Shown in pieces: positions 7,869 through 59,334 of a DNA stretch of 64,000 bases. The first letter of the stretch is position 1. Every line of letters starts with the position of its first letter. The stretch comes from Bacteroidota bacterium (GTDB lineage Bacteria; Bacteroidota; Bacteroidia; B-17B0; Aurantibacillaceae), in NCBI GenBank assembly GCA_025362395.1, contig JANYGK010000115.1, positions 62,001 through 126,000 of the forward strand, read 5' to 3'. The position numbers were made by a program, and so were the translations under genes. A model generated the notes under the pieces. The model was given only the letters and a program-made list of their open reading frames with translations. It made no database searches and was not told where the DNA came from.

Positions 7869-10800
7869 TTACCGCATCAGCGTAATATTTCCTTTTTTAA
7901 ATGATTCCCGGCCGTTGTTACATTTAAAGGTCATGTAATAGCCATATACGCCTTGGTCTAACAGCTTACCTTTATACATGCCGTCCCAGCCCTTTTTTAC
8001 GTCGTTGGTCTCAAATAGTTTCTCGCCCCAACGGTCATAAATCGTTAAATATACTTCTGTAATAAAATTACTTCTTATGTATAAAATATCGTTTGTGCCG
8101 TCTCCGTTGGGTGTAAAGCCGGTAGGAAGGTACACCGTGCTTTCATTACAGGCATCGGTGATCATTTCTAAAAAAACACTTTTCAATTTATGAGAACACC
8201 CGTTGTTATCGGTAAAATAAATATCATACTCTCCTGTTTTTACAGGGCTAATGGAAAATTGATTATTCGGTAAATTTTTAACCGGTGTATTTGGTACAAC
8301 GGTCAGCGTACCTGTATAAGGAAATCCGCTAAGCGTTATAGTGGCCGACTGCCCTACTGTTATTGAGTTTGAAGAAACACTGATAGAGGATGTGTTATAC
8401 GTAAAAGGGTATACTGTAACCGTTGTGGTTAAACGTGTTTTACAGGTATCCGATCCTATTATATTACCAATGGTTACTGTATACACAGTTGTATAAGCAG
8501 GAAATGCTTTCGGGTTTGAAATAGAGGTGCTTGTGAGGCCCTGACTTGGCAACCAGTTATAATAATTTCCGCCTGTAGCCTTTAATTGTACGGTATCGGG
8601 CTCACATTTACTCATTGAGTTATTTACGGCAATAGCGGTGAACCCGTTCAGGTTTATAGGCTTAACTACGGTATCGCTGCAACCGCTGCTGTTGGTTACT
8701 ATAAGAGATACATTGTAGGTTTGCGGATTTGAATAATAGTAAAAAGGGTTTTGAATGCTTGAGCCCGATCCGTTGCCGAAATCCCAGGCCCAGCTCACCG
8801 GGCTGAGTGTAGACGCGTCGGTAAATATAACGTCGTTATGGCAAGGGCCTATGGTGTAAGTAAAATCAGCATTTATAACAGGATATACAGTAACGGTTGT
8901 AGTTAATGTTTTAATGCACACTTTATTAAGTAAACTGTTTTGTGTAATGCTAACGGTATAAATAGTTGTAGTTAATGCATTACATGCCGGGTTGGCTACT
9001 AAAGAATTTGAAAGGCCTGTAACCGGTTGCCAACTGTAACTGCTGCCACCTTGAGCTAACAGAGACACTGTTGCATTTGAACACTTTGTTTGTGGGCCGT
9101 TAATGTTTACAGAATCGACGGGTACAATAACCGTTTTAGTGATAGTATCCGCGCAGCCGTAACTCGTTTTGGAAATAAGCATAACCGTGTAAGTGCCGGC
9201 TGTTACAAAGGCATGCGAAAAGTTTTGAGCTGTTGAGATTGCGGTAGAATTAAGGTACCAATAGGCAGGTGTAGTAAGAGGATTGGTTTGATTGACAAAG
9301 TTAACTTTATTTGAGCAGGTATCGATTACTGCTAAAAAATTTGCTACAGGTACTGCCTGAACCGTTATGATAACACTTGCCGTATCGTATAGATTATTGC
9401 AGATAGATGTTTTAACATAGAGATGTGCCGTATAGGTGCCCGGCGCAGTAAATGTTTTTACGGGGTTTAATGTAAGCGAGGTCGTATCATTATTACCAAA
9501 ATCCCACATAAAAGGATGGCCGGCCGTACTGTTGTTATCAAACTCAACGGTTAAAGGGGCGCAACCACCAAGTGTAGAGGTTGCAATACTCGCAATCGCT
9601 GAATTTAATTGAAAATCAAATTTAAAAACGCCATTATTACAATTATTATTATCTGTATTGTGGTTAGGGTTACCGGGTGTTCCCGGCCAAGCGCCCGGCG
9701 TAACCGGAAAATCATCATTGCCCCCACAACCTGCACACACAGACTGATACACTATGCCGTGTTTATCAAAACGGCTGGTTCCCCCATCCACATGTTCATG
9801 GCTGACAGGTCCTCCAAAATACGTTCCATAGATAAGACTTGCCATATTTGGAGCCAACACCATCAGGTAAAAATTAAACCCGTCGGTTGAGGGTTGAATA
9901 GCATTTCCTGTAATAGCCATGCCGTTAGTAGCGTTTAAAAAAATAATGTTACCTCCCCAACCCGATATGTAAATATTTCCTGCACAGTCAACCGAAAAAG
10001 CAGACGGTGATATATTTATATTTCCGTTACCATTACCAAAAACCGTAGCAGCCTGCAAAGCGCTTAACTGAGGATTGAATTTTTGGATGAATTGCTTGCT
10101 GTTCCCATTTGAATACACTCCAGCCGTAACCGGCATGTTTCCTAAAGATTGTCCGTATATGTAAACATTCTGTTGATTATCGAGTTGCACCAAATAGCTT
10201 TGATCGTAATCATTAGTTCCTATAAAGCTGCCATGCATTATAACTGACCCATCATACTTTATTTTACAGAGGTACCCATCGCATTTACCCCCACCATAAG
10301 TTGTATTATAACTTCCGGGGGTAATAGGAAAGTCTGCACTTCGTGTACCTCCCGTAACATAAATATTAAAGGTATCATCTAATGCGAGTGCGTAACCCGC
10401 ATCGTTATTACTGCCACCCAAATAGGTACTGAAGGCTAAAGCGGTAAGTGCAGGATTAAATTTTATTAAAATCGCATCCTGTTTACCTCCCAGAGTTGCA
10501 TCTAAAGCGTTAAGCGTAGGAAAATTGGCAGATTTTGTGCTGCTGTATACATAAATATTATTCAGTGTATCAACCTGTATTTCGCCACGGTACTGGTCAC
10601 CGTAATTGTATTGTAATGAATCAGGCGGATATTCTGTAACATTACCAAAAGGTGTGCTGTATGTAGCAATTACATTATTATAATTTATGCCATCGTTACC
10701 GCTGCCGCCAATATAAGTAGAGGACAACAAAGAGGACCCCGCTGAATTGAACTTAGCTACATAGATGTCTGTACCATTTGCAAAAGCTGTCCCGTTAAAT

Positions 10801-11942
10801 ACAAAACTTATAAAACTGCCACCATTAAAAGTAGCATCATAGCAACCCACAGTGGTAGGGAAATTATTTGAACCCGTGGTTCCGTACAAACACAGGTTAT
10901 CGTTTTTATCCACTACCAGGCTTGATACAGTTTCCGCATCGTTTCCTCCTAAATAAGTGGAATATTTTAAATAGGTGCCTGCTGAATCATATTTAGTAAT
11001 AACAACATCAGTTTTACCGTTGGCAACGGGGTTGTTAAAGGAAACATCATAAGCGCCAAGGGTGGTAGGGTAGCCCACATTAAAAACCGTTCCACCGGAA
11101 TAAAGGTCTCCCCTGTTATCATAAGTTGCCGTCATCCCAAAATTATCGGCTGTACTGCCACTTTGCGCTGCAAACACCAGTAAAGGATCAATGATCAGGT
11201 TTTCATTTTGATCATATTCTTGTAATAATTTAAATGTAACTGTATTGTTTTTTAATATGTATTTAGAAGGAATAATAACTGTATCACCCCTAATTACCTG
11301 GTAAACAAAAGGCTTTTCTTCGATCATTTCTTTAACAGAAGTTAAAATATGAAGCGAACCGTTCACTAATTTCATATTTGCAACGCCGTTATAATGCATT
11401 TTAATGTCACCGGGATTACCGTTAGGCTTAACCACAAAATTATATTTTATAGCCTGACTTTTGCCTAAATAAACCGCGTCAATACCGGGATACAGGCCTG
11501 AAATTAAAATGGTTTTAAAATGTTGAACGTGTGCCGCCCAAGCATGTTCATCTTTTCCTATGTAATAATTATCATAATCAGATGAAGCATTTTCTGAAAC
11601 GATTTGCGGTGTAAGATTGGATTCTAAAAAATCAACGGAATAGGCGTGATATTTTAAAGTGTTGGAAAGCACATGCCCTAAATGCCTCGCGCGGTAAGTA
11701 TCTTTATCATAAAAATGAAAGGTTAACTTACCCGAAGTCTCTACAAATAAAGCGCCTCCATCGAGTTGTGCCCTGTAAGCAATAATTTTATCCCACTGAT
11801 TTTTGTTTTGTGTAAACCGTACCTGTGAGCTTAAGCTTGTATTTGGTGTTTTAACTCTTTGGGAATAGCTAAACAAACTCACCGTTAAAAAAAAAGCTAT
11901 GAATATTAGTTTAATCACTAAAGTAAATTTAATAAAAAACAA
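7869..11942 (-). CDS. Giant T9SS type-B surface protein with SBBP and PKD repeats
   Basis: About 1357 residues, predicted to be exported to the cell surface. After a signal peptide comes a conserved N-terminal module with RFTQNKNQWD and NYYIGKDEHAW, then SBBP-type repeats with YSTYLGG phrases (about residues 300-740), then PKD-like domains (WDFGNGSG, MWDFGNNDTT; about 780-1150), and a C-terminal type-B sorting domain (FTPNGDGTNDIL, YDRWGEKLFET, GVYGYYMTFKC). The family is adhesin-like. The only start codons in frame are TTG at 11942, directly after a stop codon, and GTG at 11918; the GTG gives a more usual signal peptide (MIKLIFIAFFLTVSLFSYSQ). The gene heads an operon with the PorP/SprF and OmpA-family genes. 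Confidence 0.9.
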   Translation of the reverse strand: MFFIKFTLVIKLIFIAFFLTVSLFSYSQRVKTPNTSLSSQVRFTQNKNQWDKIIAYRAQLDGGALFVETSGKLTFHFYDKDTYRARHLGHVLSNTLKYHAYSVDFLESNLTPQIVSENASSDYDNYYIGKDEHAWAAHVQHFKTILISGLYPGIDAVYLGKSQAIKYNFVVKPNGNPGDIKMHYNGVANMKLVNGSLHILTSVKEMIEEKPFVYQVIRGDTVIIPSKYILKNNTVTFKLLQEYDQNENLIIDPLLVFAAQSGSTADNFGMTATYDNRGDLYSGGTVFNVGYPTTLGAYDVSFNNPVANGKTDVVITKYDSAGTYLKYSTYLGGNDAETVSSLVVDKNDNLCLYGTTGSNNFPTTVGCYDATFNGGSFISFVFNGTAFANGTDIYVAKFNSAGSSLLSSTYIGGSGNDGINYNNVIATYSTPFGNVTEYPPDSLQYNYGDQYRGEIQVDTLNNIYVYSSTKSANFPTLNALDATLGGKQDAILIKFNPALTALAFSTYLGGSNNDAGYALALDDTFNIYVTGGTRSADFPITPGSYNTTYGGGKCDGYLCKIKYDGSVIMHGSFIGTNDYDQSYLVQLDNQQNVYIYGQSLGNMPVTAGVYSNGNSKQFIQKFNPQLSALQAATVFGNGNGNINISPSAFSVDCAGNIYISGWGGNIIFLNATNGMAITGNAIQPSTDGFNFYLMVLAPNMASLIYGTYFGGPVSHEHVDGGTSRFDKHGIVYQSVCAGCGGNDDFPVTPGAWPGTPGNPNHNTDNNNCNNGVFKFDFQLNSAIASIATSTLGGCAPLTVEFDNNSTAGHPFMWDFGNNDTTSLTLNPVKTFTAPGTYTAHLYVKTSICNNLYDTASVIITVQAVPVANFLAVIDTCSNKVNFVNQTNPLTTPAYWYLNSTAISTAQNFSHAFVTAGTYTVMLISKTSYGCADTITKTVIVPVDSVNINGPQTKCSNATVSLLAQGGSSYSWQPVTGLSNSLVANPACNALTTTIYTVSITQNSLLNKVCIKTLTTTVTVYPVINADFTYTIGPCHNDVIFTDASTLSPVSWAWDFGNGSGSSIQNPFYYYSNPQTYNVSLIVTNSSGCSDTVVKPINLNGFTAIAVNNSMSKCEPDTVQLKATGGNYYNWLPSQGLTSTSISNPKAFPAYTTVYTVTIGNIIGSDTCKTRLTTTVTVYPFTYNTSSISVSSNSITVGQSATITLSGFPYTGTLTVVPNTPVKNLPNNQFSISPVKTGEYDIYFTDNNGCSHKLKSVFLEMITDACNESTVYLPTGFTPNGDGTNDILYIRSNFITEVYLTIYDRWGEKLFETNDVKKGWDGMYKGKLLDQGVYGYYMTFKCNNGRESFKKGNITLMR

Positions 11943-37266: not shown

Positions 37267-40200
37267 TTATTTTACAAGCACTACATGGCCTATGTGGTAC
37301 TCATGATCCTGTGACACAATGTTTTTAAAATCACATTTCCATACATACACATCATCTTTACACGGCCCGCTTTTATACGTACCATTCCAGCCTTGCTCAG
37401 GATCGTTGGTTGAATAAATTTGCGCTCCCCACCGGTCAAAGATCATAAAGGTATATTCTTCAATGCCTATTACTTTAGGTTTAAAAACATCGTTTAAATC
37501 GTCTTTATTACCCGGTGTAAACGCATTGGGAATCCAGAATCTGAATTCGGGCAATATTTTAATAAGCAGCCTGTATGTATTAAGGCACCCAAAATTATTT
37601 GTAATGGTTTGTGTTACATAATAATTTCCCCAAGTGGCGTATGTATGAAAAGGGTTAACGTCGGAAGAGTTAGCCCCGTCATTAAAATCATAATACCAAC
37701 CTACAATGTTTTCAGAAATAGAGGTATTATAAAAAGAAATATCGGGATCAAAAATAGTAGTAATGATAGGCGAGGCCGTAAAACCCGCTAAAGGAGTAGG
37801 GTTTACGGTTATACTATTAACCGCGCTCACCTTGTTTGTATCAATACAATACCGGCTGCTGATAACTGTTAACGATACGCTGTAGACCCCGGGAGGCGTA
37901 AATATATGCATAGGGTTTTGATCCGTAGAGGTTTTACCGTCGCTGAATTGCCATAAATAGTTTAAAGGAAATGCATACGTACTGCTATTGGTAAACGTAA
38001 CGGCTACAGGATCGCAACCTGATGCTTGATATAGCCCGACATCTGCAACAGGGTTTGCATACAGCTGTATTGTTGATGTATACGTATTTTGGCATCCGTT
38101 TTTATCTTCTGTTAACGCAACAGTATATGAGCCCGGTATATTAAAGGAAACGCCCTGAACATTAAAATTAGTAGAGTTTTGAGGAGTTGCTTGTGTTCCA
38201 AAGTTCCAAAAATGACTAACGGACCCAAAAAATGTGCTGCTGTTACTAAAATCAAATTTATTCCCGGTAAAACACATATCTGTAGTCGATACATAAGTAA
38301 AGTGCGAACCGGGTGTTTCTGTTACCGTAATGCTATTTACGGCAGTTGTTGAATTAGTATCAATACAGCCTACAATCGTTGATATTGTTAATGAAACCGT
38401 ATAAACTCCCTCCGTAGAAAATGTAATAGCCGGGCTTGCAGCAGTAGACGTTGTGCCATTACTAAAAGTCCAAAGATATATCATAGGGTTACCGGCGGCA
38501 CTAAGGTTAGGAAAAGTAACTGTAAAAGGCGTACACCCCGCGGTTAAAAAATTGCCTATGGACGCGACGGGATTTGAATAAAGACTTATAAAAGCCGAAG
38601 ACGTATCGGCACACCCGGCCTCACTTACAATAAGGCTTACGCTATACGTTCCGGGGCTACTGTATGTAACGTTTACCGGATTTTGAGCGTTAGAAGTTCC
38701 GGGAGAAGAGTTAGCGCCAAAGTTCCATTGGTAAGTTGCTGAACCGTTAGTAGTGCTGTTATTTGCAAAATTAATAAGGTTGTTGTTAAAACACGATCCT
38801 GTTGCTGAAGACTCGTTAAATAACGACACAGGCGTATCGGTTACCGTAATGCTGTTAACAGCCGCTACCTGATTGGTATCGATACAATACTGGCTTGTAA
38901 TGGCAGTAAGTGAAACCGTATAAATACCGCCTACAGTATATGTTTTTACAGGCATGCCCGCGGTTGAGGTAGTCCCGTCACCAAAATCCCATAAAAAGGA
39001 CATGCTTGTTCCACCCGAGCTTGCGTTTGGAAAAGTAATTGTGAGGGGAGCGCAGCCGCTTGTTATAAAGTTTCCTATAGCCGCAAGAGGGTTCTGATAA
39101 ACATCTACCGTTTTTGTAGCTGATGCCGTACATCCGTTTTCAATTACGGAAAATACAACGGAATAGGTGCCCGGGGCATTAAAAACAACATTATTAACGG
39201 TTGCTGTGGAAGCCGTTTGCGGGGAGGCATTTGGCCCGAAATTCCAACTGAATACACCATTTCCCTGGTAAGACCCTCCGCCGTTAAAGTTATAAGTGTT
39301 GCCATTAAAACATTGCGCCGTAGGGCTGATATAATCGGGAGACAGTAAGGGTGCTACATGAAACACCTCTGTGGCAGTATCACCGCAGGGGCTTCCGGGA
39401 TTAACGATTAAAGTAACCGTGTAAACCCCCACTGTGCTAAATGTGTACGTTGGGTTATAAGCGTTAGATGTATCGGTTGTAGTATTAGGATCTCCAAAAT
39501 CCCAATGGTAAGTTGTACCGTTAAAGCTGTTATTGGAATATGAAATGGTAAACCCGTTACAATAGCCTGTTCCCTGCCCGCTATTAGTAGTTGTTTCTGA
39601 AAGAATACCCGCCGTAACAACAAAAGGACAAGAAATAACATTGAACTGAAAATCGCGGTGGTGTGTACCTATTAAAATACCATTTCTGTACTCACTTACA
39701 CAAACACCTACTACCCATTGTCCTAAAATTGTAGGAACGCCGGTTAAATTGCCTGTGGATGGATTTATGCTGATAGCAGGATTTGATGCCATAGGGTAGG
39801 ATGCCGAATACGGAGAGGCGAATGGGACCGACAAATAGGGCGGTGCTGAATTAACTGTTGGGCAAGCACCGGTGCCGCAAGAAGAAGTTGTGCCACTGAG
39901 TATAATAGGGCAACATTGATCTAAACCATTAAAAGGAGTGCATAAACTGTAAACTAATGAATCTCCGTCGGGGTCTGATGCCATGTGATTAAAGCCGATA
40001 GGTGAGCCTTTACAGATATAAATTGGAGGACGAAACGTAAACCGCGGGCTGCTGTTAGAAGCTACTAAAGAGTTTCCCGGAATATGCTCCCAATATGTAG
40101 TGCCTGTATTACCGGGGTTCACTAAATTTAAAATAGTTGCATTTCTACAGCATCGCTGATAAACTATGTAGTAACCCGTTGCGGATGCAGGAAGGTTTAT

Positions 40201-40533
40201 GGTAAACGTATAAATAGCTTCTTCCACACAAGCCGAACCTGCGGCTGCGGGCGCACAGGGGCTGTTATTTGAAGGGGGTACAGTAAGGCTGCTTGTTAAA
40301 GGGACATTTAAGGTAGTATATACTGAACCGTTGTTATTAAAAATCGTTATAAACGCCGGGCTGTCAAAAGGTGGAATTCCGTTAAGGCAGTCCCTGTAAA
40401 CCTTCATGTTTACAAGATAATTTCCACCCCCTAAATCATTATAATATATTTCACCGCCTACAATGTGCGTGGCATCTGCTATTTTAAACAGCAGTAAAAA
40501 TAAAATGACTGTATATGTTTTTACCCTTTTTAT
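37267..40533 (-). CDS. T9SS type-B PKD-repeat protein with a likely ATA start codon
   Basis: About 1088 residues if started at ATA 40533-40531. From the first ATG (40407) the protein would be 1046 residues and lack a signal peptide. Upstream in the same frame are 42 codons without ATG, GTG or TTG that encode a perfect signal peptide (KRVKTYTVILFLLLFKIADA) and the family hallmark ATHIVGGEIYYNDLG, so the true N-terminus lies there. An in-frame stop directly precedes the ATA. The body has an N-terminal surface-protein module, about seven PKD-like domains including a roughly 165-residue unit repeated three times, and a type-B sorting domain (IPNAFTPGNKDDLNDVF, FDRWGAQIYSTND). The gene follows another T9SS gene by 4 bp. 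Confidence 0.85.
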   Translation of the reverse strand: MKRVKTYTVILFLLLFKIADATHIVGGEIYYNDLGGGNYLVNMKVYRDCLNGIPPFDSPAFITIFNNNGSVYTTLNVPLTSSLTVPPSNNSPCAPAAAGSACVEEAIYTFTINLPASATGYYIVYQRCCRNATILNLVNPGNTGTTYWEHIPGNSLVASNSSPRFTFRPPIYICKGSPIGFNHMASDPDGDSLVYSLCTPFNGLDQCCPIILSGTTSSCGTGACPTVNSAPPYLSVPFASPYSASYPMASNPAISINPSTGNLTGVPTILGQWVVGVCVSEYRNGILIGTHHRDFQFNVISCPFVVTAGILSETTTNSGQGTGYCNGFTISYSNNSFNGTTYHWDFGDPNTTTDTSNAYNPTYTFSTVGVYTVTLIVNPGSPCGDTATEVFHVAPLLSPDYISPTAQCFNGNTYNFNGGGSYQGNGVFSWNFGPNASPQTASTATVNNVVFNAPGTYSVVFSVIENGCTASATKTVDVYQNPLAAIGNFITSGCAPLTITFPNASSGGTSMSFLWDFGDGTTSTAGMPVKTYTVGGIYTVSLTAITSQYCIDTNQVAAVNSITVTDTPVSLFNESSATGSCFNNNLINFANNSTTNGSATYQWNFGANSSPGTSNAQNPVNVTYSSPGTYSVSLIVSEAGCADTSSAFISLYSNPVASIGNFLTAGCTPFTVTFPNLSAAGNPMIYLWTFSNGTTSTAASPAITFSTEGVYTVSLTISTIVGCIDTNSTTAVNSITVTETPGSHFTYVSTTDMCFTGNKFDFSNSSTFFGSVSHFWNFGTQATPQNSTNFNVQGVSFNIPGSYTVALTEDKNGCQNTYTSTIQLYANPVADVGLYQASGCDPVAVTFTNSSTYAFPLNYLWQFSDGKTSTDQNPMHIFTPPGVYSVSLTVISSRYCIDTNKVSAVNSITVNPTPLAGFTASPIITTIFDPDISFYNTSISENIVGWYYDFNDGANSSDVNPFHTYATWGNYYVTQTITNNFGCLNTYRLLIKILPEFRFWIPNAFTPGNKDDLNDVFKPKVIGIEEYTFMIFDRWGAQIYSTNDPEQGWNGTYKSGPCKDDVYVWKCDFKNIVSQDHEYHIGHVVLVK

Positions 40534-40537
40534 TTAA

Positions 40538-43063
40538 TTAATTTTTAAATACTTCAAAAAAGCCGTTAAATTTCCTGCCGTCTGTAAGAAGCAACACATA
40601 AAAATAGGTTCCTGTGTTTACATCCGGCCTCCAATCGTTGGTATAATTAGCATTACTATAAATCTTTTTACCCCAACGGTTATAAACTGTAAGTTCAGAG
40701 TTAGAGAAGCTTTCCAACCCTGTTATTTTAAAATACTCGTTAGCATTGTCGCCGTTTGGGGTTACCACATTAGGTATACTAATGGCACAGCTTGTTATAG
40801 TAATATCAGCATATACCGAACTTTTTTTATTACATAAATCGGTTACTGTTATGGTATAGATACCCGAACTTGGTTGTGGGGAAGTAATAGAATAAACCTG
40901 TCCCATTGTATCACCCGGCACTACCCCGCCTGAAGGAATGGTCCATGTAATTGTATAGTTTGAATTATTGCTTATAACGATTACCGGAATTTTTTTAACG
41001 GTATCTACACAAAATTTAAACGGGCCTATTTCTTTAAGCCCCGGAATACCGGTAGTTACAGTAACCGTATATACAGCAGAATTTGTACAATTTCCCGTTG
41101 ATCCTGTAACCGAAAAGGTTGTGTTAGTTAAAGGCGCCGGGTTAATACTGTTTCCTGCAATTCCTGTATTCCAAACATAATTTGTGGCTCCTGTTGCTGT
41201 GAGAGTTGCTGTTTGGCCTGAACATAATACTGAGCCGATAATGCTTACTGTCGGTATAGGGGTTACGTTTATGGCATACAAAACGCTTGCCGTACAAGTT
41301 CCGATGCCGCCTACAACCTGGTAATTGGTGCTAATGGCAGGACTTATAATAATTGTAGAAGTGGTTTCGTTTGTGCTCCATAAATAACCTGAAGCTCCTG
41401 ATGCAGTAAGTGAAGTGCTTTGCCCTGCACAAATAGAAGAATTTCCGGTAATATTTACCGTAGGTGTTGTGATAATATGAACCATTGCCACAGCTGTATT
41501 TGTACAAGGCCCTATGAAGCCGGTAACCGTGTATTGAGTGGTTGATGTAGGTGAAACGGTTATTGGGTTAGTGGCGGCGCCTGTACTCCAACTATAGGTT
41601 GCAGCACCTGTAGCAGTTAATACAGCACTTTCTCCCGCACATATAGACGGGCTTGCCACAGAAACCGTTGGCGTTATATTAACCGAAAAACTTTTTGTAA
41701 CCGTCATATTACAGGCATCATTTACGGTTAATGTAAAAACAGTTGTAGAAGTGAGAGGGCCCACAGTGTAAGTAGCAGAACCTGTACCCGGACCCGGCGA
41801 CCAATTGTAAGCATAGTTAGGAACTCCCCCACTTAAATGTGCTAATAATATGGGGCTTTGATTACAAAAAGAGCTATCCCCCTGACCAATAATCATAGGA
41901 GTATAATCTTTTATATATAAATTAAAACTGACTGTAGCCGGTAAAGCGCACACTGATAAACCTGTTGTAAAAGTAGAGATACTAAATTTAATGGTATCTG
42001 TTGTTTCGGGAATATTATCCTGCAAAGCAAAAATATTACAGATAGATAAACTATCTTGATTTGCACTAAAATAAACTTTACTCGGCCATGCAAAAGAAGC
42101 ATTAGCCATTTGTATATAATCTGAGCCAAGAATGGCATTACCGCCGACTTGCAGATTAAAAGAATCCGGCTGTGTAACATCACCCTGTCTTATAAAATAA
42201 ACACAATTGCTGTTACAATTTTCAATCAATACCAACGAATCCGTAAGGTTAAGATTTGCGTTTGATGATGAAACCGAAATGGGTGCAGCGCTTGTAAAAG
42301 AACCTCCTTCTAAAAACACACCTGAATCGTAAATATGATCTCCCCCATCAGCAATGGCGATTTTAATATGATACGTTTGACCGCAGGTTACTTTTTCTAA
42401 CGCGTACAACACTTTTGTAAATCCATCAAATTCGCAGTTAATTGTATTGGTAGTATTACTGCGATAGTAGGAGCTGTTTAAACCAGGGTTAACATTATCA
42501 ATAGATACAGCGGTGCCGGTACCGGGTAATAACGCAATATTTTTATTTAAATAATTTCCCCCAGAAGGGTTGGGTCCGCTGAGAAAAAAAGCAAATACAT
42601 CATTTACACCTGCATTTACAAATTCGGGGTATTCCTCGGAACCAAAACAGTACCTGAATTTTACGGAATCACCCATCGGCACAAAATCAAATTCCAATAT
42701 AGCAGCATCAAATGTACTTACTAATGAAGCAGCAGTTAGTAACGGATCCCCCGCACCCATCCAGTTAGTGCTTGTAGATGCGGAGCTATTCGGCCCCTGC
42801 GGGCCGTTCACTGAACTTGTAGAAACATCACCTGTACTTAAAAAAACACCTGATAGTATTCCTAAATTTGTGCTTGCCGTAGCATTAAATTGAGCATGTT
42901 GACTTGCATTCCCGGTAAAGGTAATGCCACTTGCCGTAACACCGGAGCCTAATAATACCTGTGTCACCAGTTGTGAAGGAGTCATAGTATTGGTTGTTAT
43001 CAACTGCGCATTTAAACGCATGCAATAGAATATAATTAAAAATATAAAGTAGAGTTTTTTCAT
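40538..43063 (-). CDS. T9SS type-B protein with a choice-of-anchor-L domain
   Basis: An 841-residue exported protein. The signal peptide ends at LNAQL (residue 20). A choice-of-anchor L domain spans about residues 25-260 (TPSQLVTQVLLGSGVTASG, GVFLSTGDV, FRYCFGSEEYPEFVNAG, DVFAFFLSGP). Three Ig-like repeats follow at about 475-670, each starting like ICAGxSxxLTATGAxxYxWST, and the protein ends in a type-B sorting domain (VVTPNGDNANEYF, YNRWGKKIYS). It is exported through the T9SS to the surface. It is the first gene of a two-gene operon with the PKD protein next to it. Function is unknown; the domain set suggests adhesion. Confidence 0.9.
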   Translation of the reverse strand: MKKLYFIFLIIFYCMRLNAQLITTNTMTPSQLVTQVLLGSGVTASGITFTGNASQHAQFNATASTNLGILSGVFLSTGDVSTSSVNGPQGPNSSASTSTNWMGAGDPLLTAASLVSTFDAAILEFDFVPMGDSVKFRYCFGSEEYPEFVNAGVNDVFAFFLSGPNPSGGNYLNKNIALLPGTGTAVSIDNVNPGLNSSYYRSNTTNTINCEFDGFTKVLYALEKVTCGQTYHIKIAIADGGDHIYDSGVFLEGGSFTSAAPISVSSSNANLNLTDSLVLIENCNSNCVYFIRQGDVTQPDSFNLQVGGNAILGSDYIQMANASFAWPSKVYFSANQDSLSICNIFALQDNIPETTDTIKFSISTFTTGLSVCALPATVSFNLYIKDYTPMIIGQGDSSFCNQSPILLAHLSGGVPNYAYNWSPGPGTGSATYTVGPLTSTTVFTLTVNDACNMTVTKSFSVNITPTVSVASPSICAGESAVLTATGAATYSWSTGAATNPITVSPTSTTQYTVTGFIGPCTNTAVAMVHIITTPTVNITGNSSICAGQSTSLTASGASGYLWSTNETTSTIIISPAISTNYQVVGGIGTCTASVLYAINVTPIPTVSIIGSVLCSGQTATLTATGATNYVWNTGIAGNSINPAPLTNTTFSVTGSTGNCTNSAVYTVTVTTGIPGLKEIGPFKFCVDTVKKIPVIVISNNSNYTITWTIPSGGVVPGDTMGQVYSITSPQPSSGIYTITVTDLCNKKSSVYADITITSCAISIPNVVTPNGDNANEYFKITGLESFSNSELTVYNRWGKKIYSNANYTNDWRPDVNTGTYFYVLLLTDGRKFNGFFEVFKN

Positions 43064-48092: not shown

Positions 48093-51000
48093 TTAAAAAA
48101 AGGCTCTTACCTGGGCTCCGCCAATATTAATTATTTTTGAGTTGGGCGATTTACGCCCATCGTAATTAATGCTGATTTGTATATTGTTTGTAAGGTTCCT
48201 TTGGTAGCTTAGCCCCCAGGTATAATTATAGCCTGTTTTTAAGGCGTTCAGCATTTCATAGGCAATTGGGGTGTTCTCCAGGTCATTGTATTTAATAGAA
48301 ATAAAATTAATCTTCCCGGTCAAGCTTCCTTTTTCTACTTTGTTGTATTTAAACTCCAATCCAAAATCATCCAACCGGGCTTTTTGAAATCCTTCTACTA
48401 TAATATTACGCTTACTATTATATTTATAAGTAACACTTACTCTAAAGCCCGTATTAGGCTGGTAGCTGAGCTTGGGCTCAAGGTTAAACGATTCGATATT
48501 AAAATTACGGGACGGAAAGTATAATGATACCGTTGATTTATGTCCGTAACTATTTGTACTGCTAATGCTCCAAGCCCTTGTTACATTCCAACGCCAGCGC
48601 CATTCGTGAGTTTCGTTGCTGCGGTTTTCAAAGCCATTGGTCAATAATTGTTTGGTTAAATTATTTTGATAGGTGTAATCAGTGCCGAATACTGCCGCGC
48701 TTTGGTTAAAAAATATACTTTGCCTCAGCGAATAATTTAAAGCCGTAATAAGTGTGTCACTTAATTTTATAGCAAAGGGATTAAAGGTGAAAAGCTGCCC
48801 GATATCCTGCGATTTTTTATCAACCCTGTAAACAGATTGTGTGGCGAAGCGGCTTAAAAATTTCATGGCTTTATTCACAGAATCTTTTAAAAAAACGGAA
48901 GGGCGAAGGTTTAATGAAAAACTAAACTGGTCGTGCAACACTTTTACATATTGGTTGGTAGGAGCGTATACCCTTATATACAAAGCCTGATCAGAGAACT
49001 GCGCTATTTCAAATTCATTTAATTCTGCCACGCCGTTATCGTTATAATCTTTCCAGGCGTAGGTTCCTTGGCCTGCCGACACCAATAAATAATAGTATTC
49101 CTGCTTGTTTTCAAGCCCGTAACCGGTTTCATAAAATGTGCTTGAGGTAATAAAGCCTTTAAACAAACGCGGCGCATATTCTACCCTGCTCAATACAGTA
49201 TTGTCGGGTTTTAAATATAAGGGATTGGCCTTTTTTAAATGCAGTTCCCTGTAAGTAAAAATAACAGAAAATGGGTTATTCTTAATGGCGTTAATAGTTG
49301 CTGAAAAGCCCGCATTTTGAGCAAATGTAGAATCTTTTAAAATGGCGCTATACGCTTGTTTATCACGTCTTTCCCTGTAAAATACTTTGTACCTGTTCCC
49401 GGTTGTGTCTTTATTAGTTATGTTTCCTTCCCATTCCCAAAATTGGTAGCTCCTTGGCAGTAAACTATCCGAGGTTATTTTTCTGAATTCGTTATGCTCA
49501 AACTCATCGAGGTAATTTAATTTAACTTTACCAAAAGACCTGGAAATAGCGGCTTTATGCCGGTAAAATTTACTTGCCTGCGATAAATAATTACTTGTTA
49601 AATAAGATCCTGTATAATTGATAGAAGTGGTTTTTGTATTGTAAAAGCTTTGGATACTGTGTTTTAGCCCTTTGTAAAAAGAGCCTTCATCAAAAAAATT
49701 AATGCCGTATAACAATTTTATTTCATTACCTTTTTGAATGCCGGCTTGCGCCAAGCCCACATTTTGATCCGTATTAATAGGCGCGCCGATAGGCCTGTTC
49801 CAATCACGCTCAAACTCCACTGACCTATACCGTTCAATGGGGCTGAAATACTTTTGTATATATTCATAGCCTACGTTATAAACCGCATTTAAAGATTCTT
49901 TTTTAGTAGTGTCTTTTTTTATAACGGTTTGGTTGTTACTGTTCAGCTTAAATCCGTAACCGTTATCGTCTTTTGAGTCATAGGCGCTAAAGGTATTAAT
50001 GTCGTTTTTAGTGTACACTCCTTCCATATCAAGGTTATGAGTTTTATCAAATACATAATTCGCACCCGCTGTTACCATTTGCTTCTTTTTAGGCGTCACC
50101 AAAGGGATCACGGGCTCATAGTTTCCTTGTAAAATACCGCCTGCGGGAGCTGTCCATTTATATACGCGTCCGTTTGCCTTAGTAAAAACCTGTACGTAGT
50201 GTCCATTGTTTTCTCCCACGTAGCTAAATTTTAAACTGTACTTTGCACTATCGGGATTGGTAGAATATACATAAATTCCCCGGTAGGTAAATCCTGCCGT
50301 TGTGGTGTCTTTTTTCCAATAAAATATATCCGTATTATTGAACGCTGCCGGTGTTGCCCCGCTTGAAACCGCTTTGCTCAAGGTATCTCCAATATTAAAC
50401 AATACAAGCTTTTGAGGGTCGGTAAGCGTTTGCTGAAGGGCTTTGTTTTTATTATCCTGTTCACTATATACATTAAATCTCAGCTTTAGCTTTTGCATTT
50501 CAACTTCTTCACTTAAAAAAAACAGCGATCGTGCGTAATTTCTTTCCGCATACTGAAACTCAGCAATGATCCGTTTATCTTTTGTTATAATTTGCTTTGC
50601 GGTAAATGTTAATTGCGCCGTGTTATAATCAATAATATAATCATTTTCCTGACCGCGCTGTAATAATTTTCCATCAATATAAATTTTTTCGGTACCGGAT
50701 AATACGATAATAAACTGTTCGTTATTTGCACCGGTTAAGCGATAAGGCCCCTGGTTATTTTCTGTTCCCTGTATCACATTTCTCGCAAATTTTCCTTTGC
50801 TTACCGCTCCGCTTACCTGTGTTTTAAAAAAAGCTGTTTTTTTATTGATTGTATCTTTAAACGTATTTGAAAAATAAGCGCCCTGCGAACGCTTGTAAAA
50901 ATTCATGAAATAACCGGTAGGCCTTTGCAACTGAAAATCTCCTACGATTAATTTATTTGTTTGGTTCGACAATTGAATAAATACTTTATCAAATTCCTGT

Positions 51001-51578
51001 AACTGCGCGGTAGTTCCGTCGGCCTGAAACGGAATATTATCATCTGTTGCCGCTAAAATCAGATCTACATCCCGGCTTAATTTACCGCTTACCTGTAAGT
51101 TTAAACTCGAGTTAACTACTACATCCTGATTATTTCCAAAACTTATTCCCCGGCTTATACTTCCGTTTTTATTTAAGCCGTCGGTTATAAACGATTCGTT
51201 GGTATTGTTTAGCGGATCAAAGGAAATGGTAAACGGGTTTGAGGGCAGTGACAGGTCTTTGGTTAAGACTGATTTATTTTTATGGTAGTATTTTTTTTCA
51301 AAATTATAAGGAAATGTTTTATAGGAAACAGAAAGTGTATCGGTAGGCCTTTTTTTAAAAATGAGCGCTTTGCGGCCGTAATTTATTTTATAGGAAGCGG
51401 TGTCTACAGGCGATTTTTTTGAAGAAATTTTTATGGACCCCGGGATTAAGCTTAAGCTGTCTAAAAAAAGAGTATCCGATTTTAAAAGGTATTGTTTTTG
51501 TTTTAAGTTGGTTTGAGATATTCCATCAAACACACTTCCACACAAAAAAAACAATATGCAAATAATCCTCAAAACCAC
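48093..51578 (-). CDS. Large outer-membrane protein of unnamed Bacteroidota family
   Basis: A 1161-residue exported protein with a GTG start at 51578 and a signal peptide (to about residue 21, ending DGISQ). The N-terminal third has beta-rich modules and the striking conserved-looking segments KNGSISRGISFGNNQDVVVN and DNIPFQADGTTAQLQEFDKV. The remainder is a series of amphipathic strands with many Tyr, Phe and Trp, ending in aromatic-rich sequence and a final Phe, as in outer-membrane barrels. From recall, proteins with these segments occur widely in Bacteroidota without an assigned role; I cannot name a family. Neighbours are housekeeping genes and give no clue. Confidence 0.7.
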   Translation of the reverse strand: MVLRIICILFFLCGSVFDGISQTNLKQKQYLLKSDTLFLDSLSLIPGSIKISSKKSPVDTASYKINYGRKALIFKKRPTDTLSVSYKTFPYNFEKKYYHKNKSVLTKDLSLPSNPFTISFDPLNNTNESFITDGLNKNGSISRGISFGNNQDVVVNSSLNLQVSGKLSRDVDLILAATDDNIPFQADGTTAQLQEFDKVFIQLSNQTNKLIVGDFQLQRPTGYFMNFYKRSQGAYFSNTFKDTINKKTAFFKTQVSGAVSKGKFARNVIQGTENNQGPYRLTGANNEQFIIVLSGTEKIYIDGKLLQRGQENDYIIDYNTAQLTFTAKQIITKDKRIIAEFQYAERNYARSLFFLSEEVEMQKLKLRFNVYSEQDNKNKALQQTLTDPQKLVLFNIGDTLSKAVSSGATPAAFNNTDIFYWKKDTTTAGFTYRGIYVYSTNPDSAKYSLKFSYVGENNGHYVQVFTKANGRVYKWTAPAGGILQGNYEPVIPLVTPKKKQMVTAGANYVFDKTHNLDMEGVYTKNDINTFSAYDSKDDNGYGFKLNSNNQTVIKKDTTKKESLNAVYNVGYEYIQKYFSPIERYRSVEFERDWNRPIGAPINTDQNVGLAQAGIQKGNEIKLLYGINFFDEGSFYKGLKHSIQSFYNTKTTSINYTGSYLTSNYLSQASKFYRHKAAISRSFGKVKLNYLDEFEHNEFRKITSDSLLPRSYQFWEWEGNITNKDTTGNRYKVFYRERRDKQAYSAILKDSTFAQNAGFSATINAIKNNPFSVIFTYRELHLKKANPLYLKPDNTVLSRVEYAPRLFKGFITSSTFYETGYGLENKQEYYYLLVSAGQGTYAWKDYNDNGVAELNEFEIAQFSDQALYIRVYAPTNQYVKVLHDQFSFSLNLRPSVFLKDSVNKAMKFLSRFATQSVYRVDKKSQDIGQLFTFNPFAIKLSDTLITALNYSLRQSIFFNQSAAVFGTDYTYQNNLTKQLLTNGFENRSNETHEWRWRWNVTRAWSISSTNSYGHKSTVSLYFPSRNFNIESFNLEPKLSYQPNTGFRVSVTYKYNSKRNIIVEGFQKARLDDFGLEFKYNKVEKGSLTGKINFISIKYNDLENTPIAYEMLNALKTGYNYTWGLSYQRNLTNNIQISINYDGRKSPNSKIINIGGAQVRAFF

Positions 51579-51639
51579 TATTTGTTATAACGATTTATAA
51601 AGATAGAAATTGTATTTTTAACGCATAAACTATATTTAA

Positions 51640-55565: not shown

Positions 55566-56202
55566 AAGAATTTGTTTTTAATTATTTAAAACAAAGTAAC
55601 TATATAAGCAAAGGAAAGGCGTTAAGCTTTGATGCGGAGATGTGTACAGATGTTGCAGTGTTGTAAGGGCCTGAAAATCAATTTATATTTTATAGAGTTA
55701 TTGCATTTATAATAGACAACTCTTAAATTATTTACTGTTTTTGCAACATTTATAAATAAATAATAATCCTATATTTTATTAATTAATCATTTTAATGAAG
55801 TTAGTTTTATCCCTGTAAATTAATGGGTTCATAAAAAAAGCGTATTTAGAGCTATCGTTTTTTGGCCTGTAATGCCTCCCCCCAACTTTAATAACTGCAT
55901 GTCGGGTTTGTTCGGTTTAATAGCTTTTCTGCAGTATAGTTAGGAATGCCCGAGTCGGGCATTCAATTAATATAATACACCTGTTATGTTTATTTTAATA
56001 ATAAACGATCTTTTACGTATATAGCTGCATAAAAAGAACTAACATTACTAAAACTTATCCAAGATCTATTAATAGTCTGAGAGATTTAACTCAAAGATCA
56101 AATTATTTTATTAAACAAGTTTGAGTTTTTTAAAGAATGAGTGGGCCGGCTGCATAACTCTATCTTATATTTCTTATTCTAAACTTTAAACTATTTAATG
56201 CT
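55566..56202. other. Long gene-free stretch with a palindrome and a possible dispersed element
   Basis: 637 bp between divergent genes, mostly AT-rich with no ORF of note. The part at about 55800-55970 differs from its surroundings: it contains a C-rich block (CCTCCCCCCAAC at 55876-55887), a GCAGTATAG segment, and ends in a perfect palindrome at 55944-55964. It may be a small non-autonomous repeat or a structured RNA. The rest should hold the promoters of both flanking genes, but no convincing TTG/TAnnTTTG pair was found. Confidence 0.4.
55944..55964. repeat. Perfect palindrome GAATGCCCGA-G-TCGGGCATTC
   Basis: Two 10-bp arms (55944-55953 and 55955-55964) around a single central base. The high GC of the arms contrasts with the AT-rich surroundings. 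It could be an operator, a terminator stem or the end of a mobile palindrome. Confidence 0.6.
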
Positions 56203-56220
56203 ATGGATGATCATAAAAAA

Positions 56221-57166
56221 GTGTATGAACTAACACAAACACGAAAGGAACTTGCCTTTGAAAAAGAAGAAAAAGGAAAACGGGCGGCAGAATTAAACAT
56301 AGCCAATATTGAACTGAATTATCAGGCGGAGCAAAAAAAGAAGCGTGCCGATGAATTGATTATAAGCTAATATTGAGTTAGAGTTTCAAACCGAAGAGAA
56401 GGCTAAACGGGCGGCAGAATTATTGACCGCAAATATAGAGTTGGCTTTTCAAACAGAAGAGAAAATAAAACGCGCGGCAGAATTAATCATAGCTAATGTA
56501 GAACTTGCTTTTCAGAGTGAAGAGAAAATAAAACGCGCTGCAGAACTAATTGTCGCTAACATTGAATTGGATTTTCAAACAGAGGAAAAAGGTAAACGTG
56601 CGGCGGAATTAATTATAGCGAATATAGAACTTGCTTTTCAAACTATTGAAAAAGAGAACCGGGCTGCAGAGCTTATAATTGCTAATAAAGAACATGCATT
56701 TCAAAATGAAGAAAAAGAAAAAAGGGCAGCAGAATTAATTATCGCCAATAAGGAGCTTGTTTTTCAAAACAGGGAGAAAGAGAAACGGGCGGCAGAATTA
56801 AGTGTTGCCAATAAAGAACTGGCTTTTCAAAACGAAGAAAAAGAAAAAAGGGCAGCGGAATTAATTATCGCCAATAAAGAACTAGCCTTTCAAAACGAAG
56901 AAAAAGAAAAACGTTCCGCAGAACTGATTATAGCTAATACAGAACTTGTTTTTCAGAGTGAAGAAAAAGAGAAGCGGGCAGCGGAGTTGGGCATTGCGAA
57001 TAAGGAATTGGCTTTCCAAAACGAAGAAAAAGAAAAGCGCTCCGCGGAATTAATCATTGCAAATACAGAATTGATATTTCAAAGTGAAGAAAAAGAAAAA
57101 AGAGCAGCAGAGTTAAGCATTGCTAATTTAGAGCTTGCTTTCCAAAACGAAGAAAAAGAAAAACGC
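56221..57166 (+). repeat. Tandem array 1: fifteen 63-bp coding repeats
   Basis: Fifteen consecutive units of exactly 63 bp plus one inserted base in unit 3. Each encodes three heptads, typically AAELIIANKELAFQ then NEEKEKR. Units diverge in the positions after A-E-L and around the Q, and later units are more alike (alternating K-E-L-A and T-E-L-V forms). Confidence 0.95.
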
Positions 57167-57613
57167 GCGGGAGAATTATTCAATACTAACCTAGAGCTTA
57201 ACCAATCTGAAAAGTCGCTTCAGAGTAGTTTAAAGGAAGTATCAGATTATAAATATTCGTTAGATGAGTCAGCTATAATTGCCATAACTGACCAAAAGGG
57301 AATTATTAAAAAAGTAAATGGTAATTTTTGTAAAATATCTAAATACAGCGAGAAAGAGTTAATTGGCTAAGATCACAGGATAATCAATTCAGGTTACCAC
57401 TCAAAAGAATTTATTAAAGAGTTATGGAATACGATTTCAAATGGAAAAATATGGAAGGGTATATTAAAAAATATAGCCAAAGACGGCACTTTTTATTGGG
57501 TGGATACGACCATAGTTCCTTTTCTTGATGAAAACGGAAAGCCTTACCAGTACCTGTCTATAAGGGTTGACATTACAGATCGGAAAGAATCTGAAGGATA
57601 TTTGATTCAACGT

Positions 57614-58243
57614 ACTTCTGAATTAGAAAACGTAAATAAAGAGCTTGCTTTTCAAAACCTGGAGAAAGAAAAACGCGCGGCCGAATTGATCATTGCCAAT
57701 AAGGAGCTGGCTTTTCAGAATGAAGAAAAAGAAAAACGATCAGCTGAGTTAATAATAGCTAATACAGAGCTTGTGTTTCAAGGTGAGGAAAAAGGAAAAC
57801 GATCGGCTGAACTTATTATAGCAAATAAAGAACTTGCCTTCCAAAACGAAGAAAAAGAAAAACGATCGGCTGAATTAATAGTAGCAAATACAGAACTTGT
57901 ATTTCAAAGCGAGGAAAAAGGAAAACGATCGGCTGAATTAGTGATTGCTAATAAAGAGCTTGCTTTCCAAAACGAAGAAAAAGGAAAACGCGCTGCTGAA
58001 TTAATTATTGCTTATAAAGAACTTGCTTTTCAAAATGAAGAAAAAGGAAAACGGTCAGTAGAACTTAGCATTGCTAATACAGAACTGGTTTTTCAAAACG
58101 AAGAGAAAGGAAAACGATCGGCTGAATTAATTATAGCTAATGAAGAGCTGGCGTTCCAAAATGAAGAGAAAGAAAAGCGCGCCGCTGAATTAATAATTGC
58201 TAATATAGAACTTGCTTTTCAAAATGAAGAGAAGGAAAAAAGA
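57614..58243 (+). repeat. Tandem array 2: ten 63-bp coding repeats
   Basis: Ten units of exactly 63 bp with no indels, of the same family as array 1, and with the same alternation of ANKELAFQNEE and ANTELVFQ units. A partial eleventh unit leads into the HisKA domain. Confidence 0.95.
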
Positions 58244-58935
58244 GCAAATGAATTAATTATTGTTAACAAGGAGCTTGAACAGTTTGCCTTTATTGCTTCG
58301 CATGATTTGCAGCAACCACTTCGCACAGTGTCCAATTACATGGGTATGTTTGAAGAAAAATATTTAAGCCTGTTGGATGATAACGCGAAAAAATATCTTA
58401 CCTCCGTTAATAATGCTACTAAACGTATGAGTTTACTTATTAACTCCTTGTTAACATTTTCGCAATTAGGCAATAATAAAATGTTAGCCGGTGTGGATTG
58501 TAAAAAAGTAATTGATGATGTATTAGCCGATATTGAAATTCTTATTATAACTACAAACACTATTATTGAGGTAGAAGAAATGCCAACTATTAATATTTAT
58601 GAAACGGAGATGCGGCAGTTATTTCAAAATCTAATTACTAACGCTATTAAATTCCAGAGGCCTGATGTGCAACCAAAAATAAAAATTTCGTCCCGGGAAA
58701 TAAACGGGAAATGGAATTTTACCGTAACGGATAATGGTATCGGTATTGCGCCGGCTTATTTTGAAAAGATATTTGATATCTTTCAACGTTTGCATACGAG
58801 CAAAGAATATGAAGGGAGCGGCATAGGACTGGCTAATTGTAAAAAAATAGTACAATTGCATCAGGGTGAAATTTGGCTTGAGTCTAAACCGGAACAAGGA
58901 ACCGCGTTTCATTTTACAATATCAAACTTAACTAT

Positions 58936-59334
58936 ATGACTAAAGAATTAAATTGCATAATGCTTATTGATGATGACAATGATGACAATTTTTTTCACGA
59001 GATGGCTATCATGAAAAATAATTTTGCAGGTACAGTGGTTGTGCAGGATTCGGGTATAAAGGCACTGGAATATATTAAATTAAAAACGCTGCCCTGTAGC
59101 AACCTGATCTTTTTAGACATCAATATGCCGCGTATGAGTGGTTGGGATTTTCTTATTGAATATAATAAGCTTATCGATGAAATTCAAAAAAAACCAATTA
59201 TTGTAATGCTTTCAACTTCTTTTAATAGAGATGATATTACGAAGGCTAAAGAAAGCAGCCTTGTTTCCGACTATATTACCAAACCTTTAACCAAAGAAAT
59301 AGTATCGGCAATTATTGAAAAATATTTTAATTGA
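58936..59334 (+). CDS. Single-domain response regulator
   Basis: A 132-residue receiver-only protein. The acidic pocket (Asp12-Asp14 region, MLIDDDNDD), the phospho-acceptor Asp61 in FLDINMPRMSGW, the Thr/Ser position in MLSTSF and the conserved Lys116 in YITKPLT are intact. There is no output domain, so it likely acts through protein interaction or as a phosphorelay step, as in Rcp1-type partners of phytochrome-like kinases. Its ATG overlaps the kinase stop by 4 bp, which shows the two were a functional pair. Unlike the kinase gene it carries no lesions. Confidence 0.93.
   Translation: MTKELNCIMLIDDDNDDNFFHEMAIMKNNFAGTVVVQDSGIKALEYIKLKTLPCSNLIFLDINMPRMSGWDFLIEYNKLIDEIQKKPIIVMLSTSFNRDDITKAKESSLVSDYITKPLTKEIVSAIIEKYFN

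Follow-up and report, generated by a model that had tools for sequence, protein, structure and literature searches.

A maintained weak AUA, AUU or AUC start codon is the probable initiation site of a secreted PKD-repeat protein gene in a genus of Aurantibacillaceae

Conserved AUU or AUA start codons are known for infC, pcnB, ccpN and cvfC1, and a conserved GTC start for sigR. In infC, the gene for IF3, an AUU or AUA start is a near-cognate AUH codon (AUA, AUU or AUC) that is conserved across species. In Staphylococcus, ccpN (AUA) and cvfC1 (AUU), which encode a transcription regulator and a 61-aa protein, likewise have conserved non-canonical starts, and natural AUA and AUU starts in S. aureus give ~10% of AUG (PMC13009471). 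The GTC start of sigR in Streptomyces is conserved at the genus level and misled gene callers; it stands behind the ribosome-binding site AGGAGGTG, its repression by IF3 was shown by experiment, and sigR is the first gene of a pair whose ratio may matter (PMC5472188). For pcnB of Escherichia coli, a cytoplasmic enzyme in an organism that uses Shine-Dalgarno (SD) sequences, the AUU start is cited as limiting expression (Binns and Masters 2002, as cited in PMC13009471). Initiation in Flavobacterium johnsoniae does without an SD; A residues at -3 and -6 and low structure tune it (PMC6847099), and AUA or AUU starts are not mentioned in the text of that report that was searched.

The gene described here, which encodes a secreted PKD-repeat protein, shares a feature with each of these systems. 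Its proposed AUH start is conserved among species as in infC, ccpN and cvfC1; it would be missed by gene callers and lies beside a partner whose ratio may matter, as sigR does; its start is proposed to limit expression, as in pcnB; and its leader has the A residues and low structure described for F. johnsoniae. In contrast to infC, ccpN, cvfC1 and sigR, all of which carry an extended SD, the PKD gene has none. Its codon is ATH (ATA, ATT or ATC) rather than GTC, it is the second gene of its pair rather than the first, and its product is a 1,088-aa secreted repeat protein of a phylum that is blind to the SD. What sets it apart is the lack of an SD, the large secreted repeat protein and a third codon base that drifts among species.

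The window (the whole stretch of DNA that was analysed, 64,000 nucleotides of an Aurantibacillaceae genome) carries the PKD gene at 37267-40533 on the minus strand. In profile searches its product matched PF18911 PKD_4 (3.7e-72), PF13585 CHU_C (3.4e-11, 43.5 bits against a cut-off of 27) and TIGR04131 (8.8e-11, 41.8 bits against a cut-off of 35), so that it has the C-terminal CHU_C/TIGR04131 sorting domain of a type B cargo of the type IX secretion system (T9SS) above the curated cut-offs. Directly upstream on the same strand lies a choice-of-anchor L domain protein gene (40538-43063, ATG start; NF038133 3.3e-74), which also encodes a T9SS type B sorting domain (TIGR04131 5e-12). If only ATG, GTG and TTG are allowed as starts, the PKD open reading frame opens at ATG 40407-40405 and yields 1,046 aa; read from stop to stop, it opens at ATA 40533 and yields 1,088 aa. 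The minus strand reads AAA AAT TAA (40540-40538) T TAA (40536-40534) ATA (40533-40531) AAA AGG GTA AAA ACA TAT. The first TAA is the stop of the choice-of-anchor L gene, 4 nt before the ATA as the earlier note had stated, and the second, in frame and touching the ATA, excludes any start further upstream. That note had further claimed that the 42 codons between this stop and the first ATG contain no ATG, GTG or TTG and encode a signal peptide followed by a family hallmark. Both points hold: none of the codons from ATA 40533 up to Met43 is ATG, GTG or TTG; the first 21 (40471-40533) encode IKRVKTYTVILFLLLFKIADA, a typical signal peptide whose n-, h- and c-regions are conserved in the genus, and THIVGGEIYY, the conserved mature end, follows. 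If translation begins at the ATA, sequence pattern and conservation thus give the protein an N-terminal Sec signal peptide. The ATG at 40405-40407 encodes the internal methionine of NMKVYRDC, which is invariant inside the mature domain.

We searched 20 genomes of the same genus and found orthologues in nearly all of them, 18 of which, the window included, had a readable start region (that of G010 was taken from locus L204). If the T of THIVGGE is taken as the origin and codons are counted backward, ATH stands at codon -21 in 17/18 (ATA in 5, ATT in 4 and ATC in 8); the remaining orthologue, G005, has AGA there and ATT one codon earlier, at -22. The orthologue comparison that the earlier note had proposed as a check therefore gives ATH in 18/18, once displaced by one codon, and ATG at codon -21 in 0/18. 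The ATA remains the most probable start in the window, as that note had argued, but it is not the isolated case described there: it is one state of a genus-wide AUH codon with a drifting third base. This column is far more conserved than its neighbours, with an entropy of 0.31 bit against 2.1, 3.0 and 2.1 bit for columns -20, -19 and -18, and about seven changes among ATA, ATT and ATC map on the genus tree, none of them to ATG (six or seven, with tip L017 read as the neighbouring ATT, one codon off). In 14/18 orthologues, again including the window, ATG, GTG and TTG are absent upstream of the hydrophobic core. The other four have a canonical codon upstream of the ATH (ATG at -23 in G014, TTG at -23 in G010, at -24 in G005 and at -33 in G017), and these codons could be their true starts. 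Between the in-frame stop and the ATH stand one codon in G001 and G006 and two in G008.

A conserved isoleucine residue and a conserved AUH start occupy one and the same column, and only the biased codon choice and the absence of alternatives upstream tell them apart. Isoleucine codons in the mature part number 163 ATC, 590 ATT and 244 ATA, and the 8 ATC, 4 ATT and 5 ATA at codon -21 depart from this usage (chi-square p=0.001, a value that treats species as independent and is overstated by their relatedness). The signal-peptide stretch shows a third-position excess among the genus orthologues and a median pairwise dN/dS of 0.43 (against 0.09 where the mature part begins), and thus behaves as translated sequence.

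The orthologous N-terminus in other genera of the family (47 rows) begins with TTG in 22, GTG in 11 and ATG in 13, and has only CTG in one; two of the 13 ATG rows (L248 and L249) belong to a 575-aa paralogue of the window genus. TTG or GTG is therefore used in 33/47, and of the three nearest lineages one has GTG and two have TTG. When signal-peptide genes were scanned crudely in samples of the window genome and of G022, ~17% had GTG/TTG (37/216 of those with ATG, GTG or TTG); against this background the enrichment of weak starts in the PKD gene of other genera is strong (Fisher p ~4e-13, relatedness ignored). Because the other genera mostly use TTG or GTG, weak initiation of this gene appears to be ancient, with the window genus at its extreme. 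In another genus of the family we also noted signal-peptide genes with CTG AAA or CTG AAG as the only plausible start (L320:14444-14800, plus strand; L325:13782-16331, minus strand; L224).

Among the alternatives to a start codon kept weak by selection, the one that survives best, and which we nevertheless consider unlikely, is that initiation at ATH is real but depends on termination and re-initiation at the nearest near-cognate codon, the codon being tolerated rather than selected. The choice-of-anchor L gene ends 2-7 nt before the ATH in the 14 genomes that have it, and the distance from its stop to the signal peptide is nearly constant despite a frame offset that varies between species. 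However, in four genomes (G005, G006, G012 and G017; loci L192, L194, L195 and L196) the gene has been lost and the ATH kept. There, the PKD gene directly faces a divergent M20-type peptidase gene, and a TATTTTTG box, judged by eye to be a promoter, lies 16-24 nt before the ATH; we take this box to resemble the Bacteroidota -7 element. G006 and G012 have no ATG, GTG or TTG alternative, and G005 and G017 have an in-frame TTG or GTG further upstream. Because these four genomes keep ATH, re-initiation is not required. The tight spacing that led the earlier note to suggest that ATA is tolerated through re-initiation thus stands, but that mechanism is insufficient as an explanation, and re-initiation may still add to initiation in genomes that carry the choice-of-anchor L gene just upstream. 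Many orthologues in other genera also do not lie directly behind a gene and yet use TTG or GTG, and mere tolerance would let ATG appear. The use of TTG and GTG in the sister genera makes selection for a weak start the better account.

It is very improbable that translation begins at the internal ATG (MKVYRDC), or at an unconserved internal TTG or GTG, and leaves the upstream codons untranslated. This ATG is the first canonical start in the open reading frame; against it, all orthologues conserve the 42 codons in the form of a signal peptide and an invariant THIVGGEIYY, dN/dS is below 1 upstream, a T9SS cargo with a CHU_C domain needs Sec export, and in paralogues and distant homologues this signal peptide follows an ordinary start. 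Slightly less credible still is the idea that programmed frameshifting, or readthrough of a stop, carries translation of the upstream gene on into this open reading frame. The tight gene spacing would suit such a fusion, which we rejected because the frame offset between the choice-of-anchor L gene and the PKD gene differs among species (+1, -1 or 0); in addition, the window has a second in-frame stop ahead of the ATA, and four genomes lack the upstream gene. That the ATA is a sequencing or consensus error of ATG has a negligible chance of being correct, since, although the window comes from a fragmented assembly of 118 contigs, ATG is absent from that column in 18 genomes that were assembled separately, several of them in named independent projects.

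The leader in the window (40534-40543, minus strand) is AT-rich, lacks an SD and has A at -6. Among the 18 orthologues, A stands at -3 in 12 and at -6 in 13, the positions reported as determinants in F. johnsoniae (PMC6847099). In 17/18, no SD-like tetramer lies within 20 nt upstream of the ATH; only G011 has an AAGGA-like stretch, and a hidden SD was rejected on this ground. No stable or conserved RNA structure was found at the start (mean z +0.48 over 18 sequences). An unusual initiator tRNA was also rejected, as the window genome has an ordinary GGGCTCATAACCC; its IF3 is a normal family member.

A survey that covered the window and 400 kb from the same genome found two further signal-peptide genes without a canonical start. 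The first encodes a WG-repeat secreted protein with no ATG, GTG or TTG start (L253:10788-11726, that is, G000:C25:50788-51726, minus strand). ATH, mostly ATH AAA, stands at its signal-peptide start in 13/13 genus orthologues, of which that of G015 also has an in-frame TTG upstream; in other genera the gene has GTG or ATG. The second encodes a DUF4846 protein (L257:118-984, that is, G000:C39:40118-40984, minus strand) and has ATH at one column in 6/9 genus orthologues, the other three having TTG, GTG or ATG two codons later. The signal peptide was the anchor for aligning these sets, which was done by eye. The infC gene of the genus always starts with ATT (ATT AGC or ATT AAC; loci L172-L191) behind a strong SD, GCGGAGGT, and so differs from the PKD gene, with its drifting codon and no SD; its start is a positive control for AUU initiation in the lineage. 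That infC keeps this conserved SD-like sequence although the lineage is SD-blind is an observation in its own right. We tentatively suggest, as a possibility somewhat short of even, that AUA, AUU and AUC are regular SD-independent starts for a small set of envelope proteins (PKD, WG-repeat and DUF4846) that would, with infC, be gated by IF3 and weakly initiated, and that standard annotation truncates or misses. A genome-wide replacement of start codons is not supported, as ATG begins 87/118 signal-peptide genes in the own-genome sample and 97/124 in G017, in a crude scan in which most of the matches without a start were misplaced windows on inspection.

Elsewhere in the window, two large signal-peptide proteins (7872-11942 and 48096-51584, both on the minus strand) have only TTG or GTG candidates before the hydrophobic core. 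A histidine kinase gene with long EEKEKRAAELIIANKELAFQ repeats (56158-58939, plus strand) appears broken: its frame changes near 56366, and an in-frame stop at 57368-57370 interrupts the PAS domain.

Taken as a comparison of sequences, these results favour a weak start codon that evolution has maintained over an error of sequencing. We consider it probable, with good confidence, that the PKD gene is translated from AUA 40533-40531, that this AUH start is kept weak by selection throughout the genus, and that IF3 is the likely limiter. The initiator fMet-tRNA would most likely pair with AUH with a mismatch at the third base, and IF3, which rejects third-base mismatches, would then be the likely limiting factor, as it is for infC. 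In vitro, output from the AUU/CAU pair falls with IF3 (PMC10158994). Because IF3 disfavours mismatched pairs, output of the PKD gene should be low and sensitive to IF3. The long conservation of TTG, GTG and ATH in this gene, while neighbouring genes in the same loci begin with ATG (in 14/14 genomes for the choice-of-anchor L gene), suggests selection for low initiation, which other genera would achieve with UUG or GUG. We can speculate that low initiation might, for instance, suit the capacity for export or a ratio to a partner.

Gene callers limited to ATG, GTG and TTG would place the start of the PKD gene at Met43 (40407) and deprive a T9SS cargo of its signal peptide, and predictions of the secretome in such lineages would be biased. 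The AUH starts compared here belong to single regulatory genes with a strong Shine-Dalgarno sequence; with a conserved AUH start that has none, in a phylum without Shine-Dalgarno pairing, how such a codon gets found becomes a testable question.
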